From Mariniplasma anaerobium (GTDB lineage: Bacteria > Bacillota_I > Bacilli_A > Acholeplasmatales > Acholeplasmataceae), in assembly GCF_016865445.1 (NCBI RefSeq), contig NZ_AP024412.1, positions 558,001 through 622,000 on the forward strand: a stretch of DNA of 64,000 bases, written 5' to 3'. The position numbers and the translations under genes were made by a program. Under the pieces are notes generated by a model. That model was not told the origin of the DNA. It made no database searches and saw nothing but the letters and a program-made list of their open reading frames with translations. Shown piece by piece: positions 53,158-60,144 of the stretch. Position 1 is the stretch's first letter. Every line of letters begins with the position of its first letter.

Positions 53158-53260
53158 TATCCTCACCCAAAACCATTATAACGTAAAATGGCTTTATTTC
53201 ATACATTTGTGATAAAAAATGTGATAATATATAAGTAAGCAAAGTGATGAGGTGTTAATG

Positions 53261-53848
53261 ATGAAAATCTTAATAGCAAGCCATAATGAACATAAGATAA
53301 AAGAGTTCAAAGAAATTTTTAAAGATACGGATATCACATTGATATCTCTAAAAGACTTAAATGATACTTTTGAAGTCGAAGAGACTGAACATACATTTAC
53401 AAAAAACGCTATATTAAAAGCTAAATATTTTGCTAAAAAATATAGAATGCCTGCGATATCTGATGATTCTGGTCTTTCAGTTGTAGCTCTTGATGGTAAA
53501 CCTGGTATACATTCTAAAAGATACGCAAACGGTAATGACGTAGATAACAATATAAAACTATTAAAAGCATTAGAAGGCGTTAAAGATAGAGAAGCCTATT
53601 TTACATCTGTCGTTGCGCTTTATTATCCAGATTGCACATATAAGACTTATAAAGGTGTTGTTTATGGCACAATTGGATATGAATTTGAGGATATTAAAGC
53701 ATTTGGATATGATCCTATTTTTTATCCTAAAGGATATGATCAATCATTTGCAAATTTAGGATCACATATTAAAAATGAAATATCTCATCGAGCGATTGCC
53801 TTAAAAAAAGTTAAGGAGGATCTTCATGAAATTATTAATCACAAGTGA
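53261..53848 (+). CDS. rdgB: XTP/dITP diphosphatase (RdgB/HAM1)
   Basis: The 195 residues contain ASHNEHKIKEFKEIF, DDSGLSVVALDGKPGIHSKR and FGYDPIF, the family's nucleotide and metal contacts. It removes deaminated purine nucleotides such as dITP and XTP. GAGGTG ends at 53254, 6 bases before ATG 53261; the ATG at 53258 is an alternative. It overlaps the phosphodiesterase gene, as rdgB (ysnA) and ysnB are adjacent in Bacillus. Confidence 0.94.
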   Translation: MKILIASHNEHKIKEFKEIFKDTDITLISLKDLNDTFEVEETEHTFTKNAILKAKYFAKKYRMPAISDDSGLSVVALDGKPGIHSKRYANGNDVDNNIKLLKALEGVKDREAYFTSVVALYYPDCTYKTYKGVVYGTIGYEFEDIKAFGYDPIFYPKGYDQSFANLGSHIKNEISHRAIALKKVKEDLHEIINHK

Positions 53849-54266
53849 TATCCATGGGAATGAAGAAAGATTAAAAGAAGTCGTTAAAAAGCATAAAGAC
53901 ATAGATTATCATTTAAATGCAGGAGATATCTGCTTAGATCCGATCGTATATGAAAAATATCATATCATTTTAGTTAAAGGAAATAATGATTTTTTCTCAT
54001 CTGAACCTTTATTTAGAGTTCTTGATTTAAATGGTGTTAAAATATACTTAACACATGGACATAAAGAGCATGTTAAATACGGATTAGATAAACTCTTATT
54101 AAATGCTCAGATACACGAATCAAATTTGGTTATATTTGGCCATACACATCAAAAATATTTGAAAATAGATCCACAAATAACTATACTGAATCCAGGAGCG
54201 TTAGGTGATTATCATAAAAGCTATGCTATTTATGATGAGGGTCAAATCACTTTTTATACATTATGA
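53826..54266 (+). CDS. YfcE/MJ0936-family phosphodiesterase
   Basis: The 146 residues carry calcineurin-like metal motifs TSDIHGNEERLKE, NAGDICLD, VKGNNDFF, THGHKEH, FGHTHQKY and NPGALGDY. Such small enzymes hydrolyse phosphodiesters, but the natural substrate is often unknown. AAGGAGG lies before ATG 53826, inside the end of rdgB, and the stop overlaps the next start by 4 bases. This starts a run of overlapping genes to 59203. Confidence 0.9.
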   Translation: MKLLITSDIHGNEERLKEVVKKHKDIDYHLNAGDICLDPIVYEKYHIILVKGNNDFFSSEPLFRVLDLNGVKIYLTHGHKEHVKYGLDKLLLNAQIHESNLVIFGHTHQKYLKIDPQITILNPGALGDYHKSYAIYDEGQITFYTL

Positions 54267-55138
54267 TAGATCAAAACGAAAAACTAATCAAAGAAAAAGC
54301 TGCACATGCATTTAAGGTTAAAGAAGAAGAGGTAAATGTTAAATACCGATTATTAGGTGGTATGAGTCATTTAACTTATGTTATAGAAATAGCTAATACG
54401 CTATATACTTATAGAGTCATTGGTAAGGATGGAAATCTATTTGTAAGTAGAGAATCAGAATTCGAAAATTTAAAGAGAATAGAAGATTTGCATATCAATA
54501 ACGAAACAGTTTATTTTGATGTAAAAACTGGTGAAAAAGCTGCTAAATATATAGAAGGTACAGTTTTATCTACAGTCGACTATCATCCATATTTAAATGA
54601 TGTTGCTGAGACCTTAAAGAAACTACATCATTCTGATATTTCTCCAGAATCAGATTATGGATTGATTGAAAGATTAAACTTGTATGAAACATATACAGAT
54701 ATCCGATCAGATCTATATCTTGATTTAAAAGATAAATGGGTAAACATTTATTTAAATGAAAGATTACATATGCCAAAAGTATTTTGTCATAATGATGCAC
54801 AACGATCAAATATCGTGATTGCAAAAGACCAAATCTATCTTTTAGATTGGGAGTTTGCTGGATCAAATGAATTCTATTATGATATTGCAAGTTTTGGAAA
54901 TGTTAAATTTGAAGATGCATTAGAATTATTAGATGTATATTTAGAGAAAAAAGCAACCAAAAAAGAACAAGATATGGTTCGTTTTTATAGAATGTTTCAA
55001 GCCCTCCAGTGGCACCAAGTTGCTTTAAGAAAAGAAATGGTTGGTCTATCAGAAGTTCTTCATTTTGATTTTAAAGCACTATCTATTAAATACCTAAATC
55101 TAGCAGAGACACTTTATAAGGAAATAACTAAGGGATGA
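54263..55138 (+). CDS. Choline/ethanolamine kinase-like phosphotransferase
   Basis: The 291 residues have the aminoglycoside/choline-kinase fold: GGMSHLTYVIEI nucleotide loop, Brenner motif FCHNDAQRSNIVI (HxDxxxxN) and LLDWEFAGSNEFYYDIA. It resembles LicA-type choline kinases, which prepare phosphocholine for surface decoration; the substrate here is not determined. The start overlaps the phosphodiesterase stop and the end lies 4 bases before the next gene. Confidence 0.85.
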   Translation: MIDQNEKLIKEKAAHAFKVKEEEVNVKYRLLGGMSHLTYVIEIANTLYTYRVIGKDGNLFVSRESEFENLKRIEDLHINNETVYFDVKTGEKAAKYIEGTVLSTVDYHPYLNDVAETLKKLHHSDISPESDYGLIERLNLYETYTDIRSDLYLDLKDKWVNIYLNERLHMPKVFCHNDAQRSNIVIAKDQIYLLDWEFAGSNEFYYDIASFGNVKFEDALELLDVYLEKKATKKEQDMVRFYRMFQALQWHQVALRKEMVGLSEVLHFDFKALSIKYLNLAETLYKEITKG

Positions 55139-55142
55139 TTGC

Positions 55143-58142
55143 ATGCGTTTAGCTGATGTTTTAAAACTTCCAAAACAGCCCCATAGTCTTTCGATTATTA
55201 AAGATTATCTAAATCAATCTTTATCCCATCTTGACTATCAAGCTGCATACAATTACTATTTTGATATCTCTATTGAGTTATCTCTTTTTGACATAGTCTA
55301 TGATGAAGCTAAAATTGTTTTAGAAGAAATTAAAACACAAAGTGAAACTATGTATTATGAAAAAATCCTTGTACATATGATTGACGCATCGATACATTTA
55401 AACAAATTAGAAGAAGCTAAAAAATATATTGAAATAAGAAAAGAAGTTCTACCTATTATTAAGCAATATTTAGGCTTTTTAGATGAAATTAAATTAAAAA
55501 AAGCATTAAATGAACCTTATTTAGATGATCTATTAAAAATACTTCAAGATATGATTCCAGATGATATAAAAATATATTGCTTAGAAGAAGTGTTTATGAT
55601 TTATAAGAAAGACCATCAATATGAAATGGCTTTAAATAGCCTTTATGAGTTATATAATTACGATTTAAAGACACTTTATTTTATTGATGAGCTTTATTTG
55701 CTCATACAGCTAAATCGCTTGGATGAAGCAAAAACTAAAGCGTATAACGAACATCAATTGCATAAAGATGATGAAAAACTCATTTTAAAATTATTAGAAA
55801 TTTATCTTAAGCTTGAAGACTATCATAAAGCATCAATTTTAGAAGCAGAATATGAAGAACTTATTGATGCACAAAGTGAATCTTATAGAAAAGAAGCATA
55901 TGAGTTAATTGTAGAACTTTACACTAAACTAGGACATAAGCCTTCAATTGATATTTATAAAGCTAAACTAAAAAAAATAACTAGAGCAATAGATAAATTA
56001 ACTAAACAAGAAGACTTAAAAAAAGACACAAAAAATCAAGATATCGTAATCATTGAAAAAAAAGAAGAAACAAGATTAAAACCTACAAATATTTTAAGAT
56101 TTTTAGAAATTAGTCATGATTTAATTGAATACTCTCATACCTTAGATGAAAAATTAAGTTTACGTGAGTTTTTTAGATTGTTTTTTATACATCTAGATAA
56201 ATTTATTAAACCAAAAGAATATGTAGTATATCTTGAACAAGAAGATAATAATTTTTTCTTTTATAAAAAAGAAAGACTTTATGATAAAACAATTCAAAAA
56301 CAAGACACACTTGATACTTTAGTAGAACATGTCATGTATACAGGTGATGAGATCTATGAAAGTTCTAAAACTATTAAATGGACAAAAAACATCATCACAC
56401 AAAAAGATTATACAGATGACATTTCATTTATTTATGCATTTCCTATATTTGATTTAGGGGTTTTTATTGTTCACCTAGATGAAGATATAAAAGATCCTCA
56501 AACCTATTATGATTTATTTAAATTGATAAGTGCAATATTATTTACTCATGTAGTTGATGAGAAAAAAATGAATCGTATCAAATATGAAAATAAGTTTTAC
56601 TCAAATGTCTTAAATTCACCAATCATATGTTATAGAGAATTAACAGAAACCAGATCAACTTATAATGATCCGGCACAAATCTTGTTTGGTATTGATAAGC
56701 ATCACCATTTAGAATTATTTTTAAGAGATATATCTTATGAGTTTGTTAATCCTTATAAAGATTTAATATCATATTTATTTATTCATCCAAATGAAGAGAA
56801 ACATATGGTTTACACATATCAAGAACGACACATCTTAGAAAAGCTTTATAGTTTAAAAGTAGGAGATGAGGTCTTTATTATGAGTTTATTTTTTGATCAA
56901 ACCGATGATGTAAAAGAAGCTAAAAAATTAGTGGATCAAGCAACCATTGATCCAGAAACAAATCTATCTAATATATACGCACTTAATAAAGAGATTGATG
57001 AAATATTAGAGCAAAAGGATAGTTTATATTTAATTGAGCTAGATATGAGTTTAAAACATATCTATGGCAATGATCAATCATTAAAATATTTTAAAGAATT
57101 TGCACAAGTCACTAAAAAATTCTTTAATGATGGATTGACTTTCCGTTTTGATTTCAATCAAATCTTTGTCGTCTTGCCTTTTAATGACATTAGAGCAACT
57201 TCTAAGATTGTTAAAGACTATTACAAGTACATTGAGTCTTATGTGTCACAAGTTCTCCCTTATGAGAAATTTAGCGCATTTATGGGTATCATTAGATATC
57301 CTGTTGTTACAGTAGAAAAAGATAAAGATAAATTATATAAGTTTTTAGATATATCTGTACAAAAAGCAAAAAGAGAAGATGACATCAAATACGCATACTT
57401 TGTATATCGTGATTATGAAAATGAATTGTTTGAACAACAAGTGATGGATCACTTGAATGTTGCGATTGAAGAAAAGAATATTGGGTTATTATTTAATCAA
57501 ATGATTGATATTAAAAAGAACTTTGTTTGGCAATACGAAAGTGAGATTATTTTAACTAATCTTGCAATCGATAGTAAGTATTTACTTAAGATTGCAGAAA
57601 AGAGAAATAGATTAGTTGATTTAGAACATTTTCATATTGAACAAGTTTGTGATTTTTTAGTTGAATTAGAAAAACAAACAGAGCGATTAATAAAGATCAC
57701 GATACCGATATCTAGACAAACATTTTTAGATCCTAAGTTTAATTCATTCCTTTTAGGAACTCTAAAAGAGAGACATATTCCATATGAGTTTTTAAGACTT
57801 AAATGTGATATGGACCTTCGTCCAAATCACTATGCAACACAAATACAAGAACTTATTGATCATGGTATAAGTTTAGATACAACATCGGTGAATATGGCTT
57901 TAAATTACCCTTTTCACGCCCTTCATATTGATATGAAAAGAGATAGTATCAAGTGGCAAAGCTATATCAGTCAAATGAAAATCATGCTTGAAGCTTATCA
58001 TATGGCAGTTGTTGTTAGAAATGTAAAAACAAAGGATCAAAAAGAAATGCTAGAGCGTTTAGGTATTTCATATATTGAAGGTAGTTTGTATAAAGAATTA
58101 CCAGCTCCTATATTAATTCGAAAAATAAAGGAAAACCTATGA
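55143..58142 (+). CDS. TPR protein with degenerate GGDEF and EAL domains
   Basis: The protein has 999 residues. Residues 1-280 form helical TPR-like repeats, about 320-590 may be a GAF/PAS-like sensor region, about 600-755 resemble a GGDEF domain and about 760-999 an EAL domain. The GGDEF signature is replaced (FRFDFNQIFVVLPF where xGGDEFxxLLP is expected). The EAL domain has LLFNQMIDIK and YESEIIL in place of the catalytic EA(L/V)LRW segment, and later catalytic residues are not recognisable. It is probably a non-catalytic scaffold or receptor. It overlaps the next gene by 4 bases. Confidence 0.72.
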   Translation: MRLADVLKLPKQPHSLSIIKDYLNQSLSHLDYQAAYNYYFDISIELSLFDIVYDEAKIVLEEIKTQSETMYYEKILVHMIDASIHLNKLEEAKKYIEIRKEVLPIIKQYLGFLDEIKLKKALNEPYLDDLLKILQDMIPDDIKIYCLEEVFMIYKKDHQYEMALNSLYELYNYDLKTLYFIDELYLLIQLNRLDEAKTKAYNEHQLHKDDEKLILKLLEIYLKLEDYHKASILEAEYEELIDAQSESYRKEAYELIVELYTKLGHKPSIDIYKAKLKKITRAIDKLTKQEDLKKDTKNQDIVIIEKKEETRLKPTNILRFLEISHDLIEYSHTLDEKLSLREFFRLFFIHLDKFIKPKEYVVYLEQEDNNFFFYKKERLYDKTIQKQDTLDTLVEHVMYTGDEIYESSKTIKWTKNIITQKDYTDDISFIYAFPIFDLGVFIVHLDEDIKDPQTYYDLFKLISAILFTHVVDEKKMNRIKYENKFYSNVLNSPIICYRELTETRSTYNDPAQILFGIDKHHHLELFLRDISYEFVNPYKDLISYLFIHPNEEKHMVYTYQERHILEKLYSLKVGDEVFIMSLFFDQTDDVKEAKKLVDQATIDPETNLSNIYALNKEIDEILEQKDSLYLIELDMSLKHIYGNDQSLKYFKEFAQVTKKFFNDGLTFRFDFNQIFVVLPFNDIRATSKIVKDYYKYIESYVSQVLPYEKFSAFMGIIRYPVVTVEKDKDKLYKFLDISVQKAKREDDIKYAYFVYRDYENELFEQQVMDHLNVAIEEKNIGLLFNQMIDIKKNFVWQYESEIILTNLAIDSKYLLKIAEKRNRLVDLEHFHIEQVCDFLVELEKQTERLIKITIPISRQTFLDPKFNSFLLGTLKERHIPYEFLRLKCDMDLRPNHYATQIQELIDHGISLDTTSVNMALNYPFHALHIDMKRDSIKWQSYISQMKIMLEAYHMAVVVRNVKTKDQKEMLERLGISYIEGSLYKELPAPILIRKIKENL

Positions 58143-59203
58143 GTCTTAAAAAGCTAAAAGATTATGTCAACAAATTAAATAAAGATGAAAAAAATAGTAA
58201 TACTTATCGAGCGATGAGTTCTTTTGAGATGATAGAAAATGTAGATCTTATGATTAAAAGATATCTAGATGAGCCTCAAGATACAAAAGGAGCTATACTA
58301 CTTGATGTGTTTGGTTTATTGCAGGGATTATTTGTTGCTATTGATGCATTATATGATTTAGCTATTGGATTGACTCAATATAAATATCATATCAATATCA
58401 ACTCAAATCCAATTTTACATGAACTAAAATATATTAGAAATGATATTGTCGGACATCCTACACATAGAACCTACTTTGATGGGGGTACAGGATTTTCTAT
58501 TTTAAAGACAGAACCGATGAGTAAAGATAAAATTGTATATGATACTTATATTTATTTAAAAAATAAAGTTGAAGTTAGAGAAAAAGAAGTTTATTTTAAA
58601 GAATTATTAGAAAATTATGAAAAAGAAAAAGATATCATCTTAAATGATATTTATCAATATTTAATTCATAGTGAAACAAAGACAAATATTCCAGAAAAAC
58701 TATATAGTTTATATGAAACACTTAATTTAGATATATTAAATGAGGTAGAACTTTTATTTAGAGAAGAATATAAGGTCAATCAAGAATCTAAACATAGATT
58801 CTTTTGGAGAGCAAGTTTATTAAAGACTTTAATAGACTGGCACGAGACAGATGAAAAAATCAATCGTATCATTTTATATATCTCTAAAGTACAAGTATCT
58901 AAGATGTATGATATGGCACTTGATATGGAACATAGAAAAGGCGCGGATTTATATACTGCGCTACCTGAAGTCATTAGTGATTTTTATAAATTCATGCGCA
59001 AACATGAAAAAGATGCTTTAAAATTGATTTCTAATATTCACGATTTTAATCATCCATTGCATCAAAGTGATTTGATTGCTTTGATGAGTTTAAATCCGCC
59101 AAAAGAAGTATATCATTTGCTTCAGTATATAAAAGAATCAGATAGTAAAGAAAAAGTTTATTTGATTGGCTCAATACTTAAAGCATATCGACCTAAAAAG
59201 TAG
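58139..59203 (+). CDS. Helical protein with HEPN-like RNDIVGH motif
   Basis: The 354-residue protein is mostly helical. Residues 90-110 (HELKYIRNDIVGHPTHR) contain Arg100-x5-His106 with polar residues next to Arg, as in the Rx4-6H catalytic motif of HEPN ribonucleases, at a plausible place between two helices. I cannot place it in a named family, and the similarity may reflect a non-catalytic HEPN fold. AAAGGA precedes ATG 58139, which overlaps the stop of the GGDEF/EAL-like gene, so the two are co-produced. Its last 58 bases plus the following 11 recur at 59839-59907. Confidence 0.6.
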   Translation: MSLKKLKDYVNKLNKDEKNSNTYRAMSSFEMIENVDLMIKRYLDEPQDTKGAILLDVFGLLQGLFVAIDALYDLAIGLTQYKYHININSNPILHELKYIRNDIVGHPTHRTYFDGGTGFSILKTEPMSKDKIVYDTYIYLKNKVEVREKEVYFKELLENYEKEKDIILNDIYQYLIHSETKTNIPEKLYSLYETLNLDILNEVELLFREEYKVNQESKHRFFWRASLLKTLIDWHETDEKINRIILYISKVQVSKMYDMALDMEHRKGADLYTALPEVISDFYKFMRKHEKDALKLISNIHDFNHPLHQSDLIALMSLNPPKEVYHLLQYIKESDSKEKVYLIGSILKAYRPKK

Positions 59204-59214
59204 AGTGTAATTGA
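59146..59214. repeat. 69-bp direct repeat, copy 1 (3' end of the HEPN-like gene)
   Basis: Starts TAAAGAAAAAGTTTATTTGA, includes the stop codon, and recurs at 59839 with an offset of 693 bp and only a handful of substitutions. Confidence 0.85.
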
Positions 59215-59252
59215 TAGATATAAATATAAAGGTTTAAGTTAGGAGCAACATC

Positions 59253-59693
59253 ATGGTTAGATTACAAGACATTAATAAAGAAAATTACGGCAGGGTTGTA
59301 AGACTTGAACTAACAGAGAAACAAAAAGAAGTGATTGCTACCAATTTAGAATCCCTTGCACAAGCCTATGCATGCAGAGACGTATGTAGAGCTTTTGCTA
59401 TATGTGATGAGGATGAAGTGGTTGGGTTTATTTTGCTTCAATTTGACAAAAAAGAAAATTTTTATGATATTTGGAGAATAATGATTGGAAAACAATTCCA
59501 AGGTAAAGGATATGGAGAACAAGCATTGCTTTTAGCAATAGACTTTCTTAAAAAACAAGGTGCAAAAGTGATTCATATGTCACATCAGACAAATAATTAT
59601 GGACCATCTAAGCTTTATCAAAAAGTAGGGTTTAAATATACTGGTAAAATTGAAGATGGTGAAGTCTTGATGGAATACCATGTTAGTGATTAG
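59253..59693 (+). CDS. GNAT acetyltransferase (spermidine acetyltransferase-like)
   Basis: The 146 residues belong to the GNAT fold, with acetyl-CoA motif IGKQFQGKGYGEQALLLAI and the C-terminal HQTNNYGPSKLYQKVGFKYT. N-terminal NYGRVVRLELTEKQKEVI resembles BltD/PaiA-type polyamine acetyltransferases, so spermidine or a related amine is a possible substrate. TAGGAGC precedes ATG 59253. The gene sits exactly between two copies of a 69-bp repeat, which suggests that it was inserted later. Confidence 0.82.
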   Translation: MVRLQDINKENYGRVVRLELTEKQKEVIATNLESLAQAYACRDVCRAFAICDEDEVVGFILLQFDKKENFYDIWRIMIGKQFQGKGYGEQALLLAIDFLKKQGAKVIHMSHQTNNYGPSKLYQKVGFKYTGKIEDGEVLMEYHVSD

Positions 59694-59838
59694 AAGTTTT
59701 TTTGATATAGATATCAAAATGGCACTCTTGACTACAATTATAGGTTATCAAAGGTAAGTAGATTCCGGTGAAAATAGTTGTATTTATTTTCTATAACTTG
59801 CGGATATATCTAAATAAAGTATTATTAGATTTAGAGTG

Positions 59839-59907
59839 TTAAGAAAAAGTTTATTTAATTGGCTCAATACTAAAAGCATATCGACCCAAAAAGTAGAGTA
59901 AAATTTA
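59839..59907. repeat. 69-bp direct repeat, copy 2 (gene fragment)
   Basis: This copy of the final 58 bases of the HEPN-like gene plus 11 more contains the same stop codon but has no gene in front of it. Substitutions include third-position changes (GAC-CT to GAC-CC), which suggests divergence after duplication. It lies 145 bases after the acetyltransferase stop. Confidence 0.85.
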
Positions 59908-59914
59908 AATATTA

Positions 59915-59923
59915 TGTTATAAT
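59915..59923 (+). promoter_or_regulatory. Extended -10 promoter of the small protein gene
   Basis: TGTTATAAT is a perfect extended -10 element, 24 bases before ATG 59947, just after repeat copy 2. Confidence 0.6.
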
Positions 59924-59946
59924 AGTTAAGGTAAGAGGTGAAATAT

Positions 59947-60144
59947 ATGGCTTGGAGTAACGAAACATATTTAATTGGTGAAAAAGTTAAAGTTGAAAAT
60001 GAAAAAGGTTTTGGTGTTATTACACGTATTGATACAGAACGTGGACTAATTTATGTTCTATTTAGAAGAATGCGGGAAGAAGCTTTTCCTTATCCAGAAG
60101 CAATTGATCAACATATTTTAAAACCAGAGGTACACAAAAAATAA
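59947..60144 (+). CDS. Small beta-rich protein of unknown function
   Basis: The 65 residues start MAWSNETYLIGEKVKVENEK and continue through GFGVITRIDTERGLIYVLFR, a pattern of short strands like SH3/KOW-type barrels. No name is assigned. AGAGGTG lies 6 bases before ATG 59947; an in-frame GTG at 59938 is part of that ribosome site. It has its own promoter and terminator. Confidence 0.7.
   Translation: MAWSNETYLIGEKVKVENEKGFGVITRIDTERGLIYVLFRRMREEAFPYPEAIDQHILKPEVHKK

Follow-up and report, generated by a model that had tools for sequence, protein, structure and literature searches.

What could a protein with degenerate GGDEF and EAL domains be doing when its gene runs directly into that of a HEPN-like protein? 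This question is raised by two genes of the wall-less bacterium Mariniplasma anaerobium, here called EALp and HEPNp, which lie in a stretch of 64,000 nucleotides (the window; positions 558001-622000 of contig 1) of the 1.9 Mb genome. As described in an earlier annotation made from the letters alone (the sequence-only reading), the two open reading frames share four bases:

55143-58142, + strand: EALp, 999 amino acids (open reading frame list, Pfam, AlphaFold2 (AF2) model, Foldseek/VIA searches)
58139-59203, + strand: HEPNp, 354 amino acids (open reading frame list, AF2 model, VIA searches, alignments)
58139-58142, + strand: ATGA overlap of the EALp stop and the HEPNp start, suggesting translational coupling (open reading frame list)
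58436-58459, + strand: codons for Arg100-Asn-Asp-Ile-Val-Gly-His106-Pro107, the putative HEPN active-site motif (alignment of homologues gathered without the motif)

The answer that we favour, and to which we give an even chance of being right, is that the two genes make up a housekeeping module of ancient origin that is inherited vertically, and that within it a pseudo-GGDEF/EAL sensor controls a metal-independent HEPN endoribonuclease.

The R-x5-H motif of HEPNp (Arg100, His106), which had been noticed by the sequence-only reading, has held up well. Among 45 distinct homologues gathered without reference to the motif, RND[IV]VGHP was present in all 45 and invariant except for the Ile/Val position. 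Arg100-x5-His106 is also invariant in 29 of 29 aligned homologues (the window protein and 28 others collected by whole-length similarity, likewise motif-free; the broken gene at locus L028 was left out). In the latter alignment, 19 of the 24 invariant positions fall within residues 62-134, and the invariant residues include R100, N101, D102, V104, G105, H106 and P107 as well as Q62, F65, V66, D69, Y72, K82, N86, N88, N90, K97, R110 and Y134. The conservation of the Arg-x5-His pattern exceeds what would be expected by chance. The motif is kept in a larger alignment of 78 rows, too (77 sequences and the window protein; three of 80 loci were too short or cut), but these loci stem from a scan of named genomes that used the HEPNp motif as its search pattern and are therefore not independent.

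The AF2 model of HEPNp is confident (predicted local distance difference test (pLDDT) 92.1; predicted template modelling score (pTM) 0.88) and consists of an N-terminal HEPN-like helical domain (about residues 20-176) and an all-helical C-terminal half (184-348) with no assigned fold. The first domain has four helices (20-44, 50-79, 96-105 and 153-176), and its motif is followed by three strands (117-152). R100 lies within helix 96-105, at the end of helix 3, and H106 is located just past its end, while the invariant D69 resides in helix 50-79, in a setting other than Ex3[KR]. According to PMC3710099, HEPN RNases carry an Rx4-6H motif with a polar residue after the Arg at the end of helix 3 or the start of the loop to helix 4, as well as an acidic residue in helix 2, and Csx1 has a beta-hairpin directly after the motif. 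The HEPNp model agrees with this description in the placement of the motif and the strands after it, and D69 may correspond to the helix 2 acid; the spacing and the polar residue are provided by R100-N101...H106, which in the model sits at the end of helix 3. The HEPN assignment is likely.

EALp and HEPNp belong to a tight run of five genes, rdgB-yfcE-kinase-EALp-HEPNp, whose neighbours overlap or are at most 4 nt apart:

53252-53848, + strand: rdgB, the first gene of the operon, for an RdgB/HAM1-type XTP/dITP diphosphatase (Ham1p_like, 1.4e-58; TIGR00042, 2.9e-54, above cut-off)
53826-54266, + strand: yfcE, overlapping rdgB, for a YfcE-family metallophosphodiesterase (Metallophos_2, 3e-25; TIGR00040 yfcE, 4.2e-18, above cut-off)
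54263-55138, + strand: an APH/choline kinase-like gene with its stop 4 nt ahead of EALp (Choline_kinase, 3.7e-13; APH, 1.2e-11)

The proposed co-expression of the pair is backed by the named genomes, in which the overlap between EALp and HEPNp is exactly 4 nt in 27 of 43 intact pairs and 1-17 nt in 41 of them, in line with translational coupling. A scan for the operon's promoter and terminator yielded nothing usable (41 promoter-like sites against 53 in shuffled sequences, no excess).

The two genes are also retained together. In a set of 41 genomes (the own genome and 40 relatives), HEPNp was found in 33 and EALp in 37; 33 genomes have both genes, four EALp only (G013, G022, G027 and G028), four neither and none HEPNp only, and the contig of G022 ends inside EALp. 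In a sample of 296 genomes of the class, HEPNp occurs in 41, or in 40 after dropping G115, which showed a partial weak match (E 1.8e-4). These 40 genomes are distributed over the own family f1 (19) and the families f3 (11), f5 (4) and f19 (6). EALp is present in all 40, in 11 of them on a different contig from HEPNp, although such counts come from related genomes and are not independent events. It was detected in 34 of 34 HEPNp genomes of f1, f3 and f5 and beside HEPNp in six of six of f19, of which the EALp profile alone, at 1e-10, recovered only two. A sample of the phylum (392 genomes) contains HEPNp in 36, all within the same groups, and both genes are missing in five of five members of genus g8, which has genomes of 0.7-0.9 Mb and, judging by this size and its family, probably represents the phytoplasmas. 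Among the named carriers are Acholeplasma laidlawii, A. oculi, A. granularum, Haploplasma modicum and Paracholeplasma vituli. Throughout the order the pair is inherited vertically and in a single copy, and one more distant family has retained it as well. As regards single genomes, G204 was considered as an EALp carrier free of HEPNp and is uninformative, its contig ending after EALp. In the single-contig genome G038, EALp and HEPNp carry one frameshift each, reflecting either shared decay or sequencing error. For A. laidlawii, GGDEF/EAL proteins were noted as early as 2008 (14 proteins; PMC2408644).

The gene neighbourhoods differ between the families, the rdgB-yfcE-kinase operon being the setting in most of them. 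Acholeplasmataceae-type loci (L061-L107) repeat the order rdgB-yfcE-kinase-EALp-HEPNp, apart from genes lost locally and places where a contig ends. In f19, EALp and HEPNp are adjacent in all six genomes and are preceded in five by genes for RelA/SpoT (TIGR00691, 3.8e-220) and D-aminoacyl-tRNA deacylase, the sixth contig beginning inside EALp, and followed in five by genes for a membrane protein and NusB, the sixth contig stopping inside HEPNp. The order rel-dtd-EALp-HEPNp-membrane protein-nusB-xseA was observed at L114, L133 and L185-L190, in a second lineage of the class. Among the 33 loci L108-L140, EALp is adjacent to HEPNp in six. In 24 of the remaining 27, which belong to Anaeroplasmataceae-type genomes, HEPNp is directly followed by bipA/typA (TypA_BipA, 3.2e-264); L126 ends inside HEPNp, and L123 and L135 are devoid of bipA. 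In the six f3 genomes looked at, EALp remains beside rdgB and is unlinked from HEPNp. Altogether, the 33 genomes with both genes have them adjacent in 26 cases and unlinked in six, all of f3, while in G009 they are split between two contigs. The sequence-only reading had made its proposal depend on the two genes being neighbours in other genomes; only one family, f3, speaks against it in this respect, as both genes are kept there without being linked. The fact that HEPNp is never found without EALp, together with their adjacency in two unrelated contexts, argues that the two act as a single functional unit in which EALp is the controlling part. BipA, a GTPase associated with the ribosome, acts in 50S maturation and binds ppGpp (PMC8313970 and PMC4543647). 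The presence of Rel, D-aminoacyl-tRNA deacylase, NusB and BipA as alternative neighbours suggests a link with translation and stringent control.

What is EALp? The AF2 model (pLDDT 87.2) consists of an alpha-solenoid, TPR-like part (about residues 3-295), a disordered linker (292-314), a GAF-like part (about 359-455, assigned from strand order only), a PAS-like part (about 496-585), a degenerate GGDEF fold (about 601-755) and a degenerate EAL fold (about 764-998); with a pTM of 0.43, the relative arrangement of the domains is uncertain. Family-wide comparisons relied on an alignment of 25 rows including the window protein (six of 30 EALp loci, being the own copy, partial or broken, were dropped) and on one of 44 sequences plus the window protein (36 of 80 loci had no or a partial EALp). 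Pfam EAL matches residues 771-983 of the window protein (1.1e-11) and 44 of 45 family members. GGDEF is matched in 25 of the 45 (best 7.1e-10), the window protein itself not being among them. Of the TPR repeats that had been claimed for EALp, Pfam gives only a weak match in the window protein (E 0.34), but TPR_19 is matched in seven of 45 members and the family profile matches consensus TPR structures. The f19 proteins are more diverged: EAL was recognised in one of three scanned proteins, at an E-value of only 0.053, and TPR in three of three, one at only 0.05.

A sequence search of the PDB with the single EALp and the single HEPNp gave no matches. With the EALp family profile, the top PDB match was DosP (8.1e-10, residues 589-989). 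In the VIA comparison, the best solved match of the EALp model is the GGDEF-EAL tandem 5m3c_B (Z 26.9, 395 aligned residues, root mean square deviation (rmsd) 4.5 over model residues 601-999), and FimX- and LapD-type EAL structures are also among the matches. The PAS-GGDEF-EAL part of PA0861 aligns with model residues 480-990 and DosP from about 460 on, both with a large rmsd because the domains are placed differently. It is certain that the C-terminal half of EALp has the GGDEF-EAL fold, in support of the sequence-only reading.

To check the catalytic residues, EALp was aligned with canonical EAL and GGDEF domains, four of each kind, taken from relatives and the own genome. In the EAL part, EALIR has become ESEII, the metal-binding Asn is replaced by Pro, the DDFGTG loop is deleted, and KID, AEG and QGY read HID, VRN and EGS. 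The GGDEF signature reads DFNQ[IL] (DFNQI in the window protein). We take these signature residues to be the catalytic ones. Neither GG[DE]EF of an active diguanylate cyclase nor the set ExLxR, N, E, DD, K, E and Q of an active cyclic di-GMP (c-di-GMP) phosphodiesterase is found in EALp. Going by these alignments, all catalytic signatures are lost, which bears out the impression that the domains are inactive, and c-di-GMP turnover is ruled out as the function of EALp by the lost residues. Since other residues are invariant in the family despite these losses, namely R378 and K382 in the GAF-like part and N681, D682, R684 and R718 in the GGDEF-like part, EALp looks like a repurposed rather than a decaying protein. 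The own genome contains 19 GGDEF and six EAL matches, the EALp domain being the weakest of the latter (48 bits versus 177-252).

The housekeeping module may be pictured as follows. EALp and HEPNp would be made together and bind each other via the solenoid or the EAL-like scaffold. EALp would use its GAF/PAS-like and repurposed GGDEF-like domains to sense a small molecule or a protein, and would restrain or direct HEPNp, which may cut a translation-related RNA such as tRNA, an rRNA precursor or ribosome-bound mRNA. A target of this kind is suggested by the alternative neighbours BipA/TypA and Rel with D-aminoacyl-tRNA deacylase. We infer that HEPNp is an RNase and that it binds EALp, and we equally infer which of the two controls the other, in response to which signal and with which RNA as the target.

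Several results weigh against this picture. HEPNp matches no Pfam or NCBIfam family; the scattered family matches among 78 members look like chance and include no known HEPN family. The AMPylated HEPN toxin 8xdj_B ranks second for the HEPNp model in VIA (117 of 134 residues, model 23-174, rmsd 3.7), but its Z of 7.2 is too low to exclude a common helical arrangement, as unrelated helical bundles score alike. Foldseek found no match to the model at an E-value below 0.001. Profile comparison by hhalign with HepT-like and RiboL-PSP alignments gave no signal, and as the control, HepT against RiboL-PSP, also failed (probability 5.8%), this comparison has little power. The absence of a fold from the VIA lists was not counted as evidence. 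For HEPNp, the motif sits where it is expected in HEPN RNases, and the fold-level match is no more than suggestive. Furthermore, EALp occurs without HEPNp in G028 and probably also in G013 and G027, the unlinked genes of f3 imply that joint expression is not required, and the link between HEPNp and translation is one of gene neighbourhood only.

According to the strongest competitor, HEPNp is a HEPN-like adaptor that binds RNA or protein without being catalytic, and the pair assists the maturation of ribosomes or other ribonucleoproteins without cleaving RNA. The neighbourhood of BipA and Rel fits such an assembly role equally well, and what the structure offers for an active HEPN fold is no more than suggestive. 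However, Arg-Asn-x4-His and the polar residues on either side do not vary even among homologues of about 27% identity, which is beyond the needs of a binding surface, and, according to PMC3710099, HEPN domains regarded as non-catalytic have lost the motif. We therefore regard the adaptor as unlikely, though worth keeping in mind.

It is less probable still that EALp and HEPNp merely share an operon by history. The longer operon with rdgB, yfcE and the kinase-like gene would allow for this explanation, as would the unlinked genes in f3. Nevertheless, the pair is adjacent in the rdgB operon as well as in the rel-dtd region (six of six f19 genomes), a place to which the rest of the operon has not accompanied it, and HEPNp without EALp was encountered in none of 40 genomes.

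A similarly poor, and somewhat poorer, candidate is a c-di-GMP receptor of the LapD/FimX kind, in which EALp would switch HEPNp according to the c-di-GMP level. While the rich complement of GGDEF and EAL proteins in the own genome and the FimX- and LapD-type structures among the EALp matches would suit this idea, EALp has lost both the Arg of ExLxR and the DDFGTG loop, its GGDEF loop is DFNQ-like and its invariant residues lie elsewhere. Moreover, G009 keeps EALp without any GGDEF match in its genome, and G010 has one in all.

The sequence-only reading had suggested a signalling or defence unit. Signalling remains plausible in view of the degenerate folds, the motif, the coupling and the joint retention, but the defence part has fared badly. 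PADLOC returned nothing for EALp and, for HEPNp, only PDC-S15 (E 0.005) over residues 124-189 of 354 (66 residues). HEPNp was absent from collections of 72,556 plasmids and 50,697 phages, was not found in viral contigs with single-protein and alignment queries, and had no significant Foldseek match among viral models. HEPN-MNT (type VII) toxin-antitoxin systems are recognised by an adjacent MNT nucleotidyltransferase; the neighbours in the HEPNp region are EALp, the kinase-like gene, a GNAT gene and a 65-codon open reading frame, and EALp itself has no nucleotidyltransferase match. A HepT-like gene of the HEPN-MNT type is present elsewhere in the own genome, outside the window (G000:C1:1288930-1289214). 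The divergence from the nearest relative, L061, is ordinary, with identities of 81% for HEPNp, 89% for EALp, 77% for rdgB, 89% for yfcE and 91% for the kinase-like gene. An abortive-infection or toxin-antitoxin unit, with HEPNp as a toxin unleashed on phage attack and EALp as its guard, would agree with HEPN RNases being common as toxins and defence effectors (PMC3710099) and with the loss of HEPNp while EALp stays (G028) but never the reverse, yet it is very improbable because the genes are single-copy, retained order-wide in housekeeping operons, ordinarily diverged (HEPNp 81% beside 77-91% for its operon neighbours) and missing from plasmids, phages and viral contigs, with next to nothing from PADLOC. 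The pair looks like an old housekeeping switch acting on RNA or translation and not like a weapon against viruses.

How does the pair compare with known systems? Degenerate GGDEF/EAL proteins are known as c-di-GMP receptors or as CsrD, whose GGDEF-EAL domains are degenerate. LapD and FimX have lost catalysis, whereas the phosphodiesterase domain of DosP, the PAS-GGDEF-EAL protein of E. coli, is active. LapD and FimX resemble the C-terminal half of EALp in fold, but they bind c-di-GMP (ligand-bound structures are among the matches), for which EALp lacks the corresponding residues and loop. DosP, although the top profile match, has no HEPN partner. According to PMC5027483, CsrD of E. coli directs RNase E to the CsrB/C RNAs under the control of EIIA-Glc. 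Like CsrD, EALp would be a GGDEF-EAL protein that governs RNA turnover through an RNase and not through synthesis or breakdown of c-di-GMP, the control of the RNase being deduced in its case from the coupling. However, CsrD as described there works with the general RNase E, while the EALp unit would have a dedicated RNase encoded alongside, and EALp possesses an alpha-solenoid and GAF/PAS-like input domains. HEPN superfamily RNases such as HepT of HEPN-MNT share with HEPNp the R-N-x4-H at the end of helix 3 and possibly the helix 2 acid and the helical core (PMC3710099). HEPNp differs from them in that no sequence relation is detectable, in the beta-strands inserted behind its motif, in its additional, helical C-terminal half and in a partner that is not an MNT nucleotidyltransferase. 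By role, HEPNp may be likened to yeast Las1-Grc3, a housekeeping, ribosome-related HEPN nuclease of rRNA processing in complex with a partner, although that system is eukaryotic and its partner is a polynucleotide kinase (PMC10942766).

The region downstream of HEPNp may hold a third member:

59947-60144, + strand: 65-codon open reading frame, possible third member (downstream of HEPNp in relatives; no Pfam family)

It was found in 39 of 92 loci searched, in 31 of these at most 120 nt from the end of HEPNp, which it follows as the next gene in most relatives of the Acholeplasmataceae. It is 95% identical to its counterparts at L061 and L062, a higher degree of conservation than in the rest of the run. 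A structured RNA had been suspected here from the 95% DNA identity with L061 and was rejected, since Rfam and ARAGORN reported none and the stretch is this coding frame. In the window, a GNAT gene (59253-59693) separates the frame from HEPNp. The GNAT gene is flanked by a direct repeat of 109 nt (79% identity; 59134-59242 and 59827-59935), the second copy of which is a remnant of the HEPNp 3' end and matches L061 better than the first (87% versus 80%). As L061 has no GNAT gene at the corresponding place and the second copy is closer to L061, the GNAT gene seems to have been inserted together with a duplicated HEPNp tail.

A broader proposal, which is improbable as a whole, is that the pseudo-GGDEF/EAL protein serves as a dedicated allosteric regulator of a HEPN RNase. 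In the Acholeplasmatales and a sister lineage, the two proteins, possibly three with the 65-codon frame, would then act as a core, non-toxin stress switch. This switch would respond not to c-di-GMP but to another signal, which may be a nucleotide such as (p)ppGpp, and would cut RNA of the translation machinery, so that what remains of a dead c-di-GMP signalling apparatus would be connected with the stringent control of ribosomes. No description of a HEPN protein paired with GGDEF/EAL domains was found in the literature searched, most subscription papers being outside its reach, and among the matches listed for HEPN with BipA/TypA none concerns HEPN. Bacterial HEPN RNases are mostly known as toxins and defence effectors. 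If the housekeeping reading is true, the pair would represent a housekeeping use of HEPN in bacteria, as a core module of an entire order, and another case of dead c-di-GMP domains steering RNA metabolism. HEPNp is moreover an example of a gene changing partners, moving from EALp to BipA with both genes still in the genome. As A. laidlawii and A. oculi carry the pair and can be grown, the idea is directly testable.

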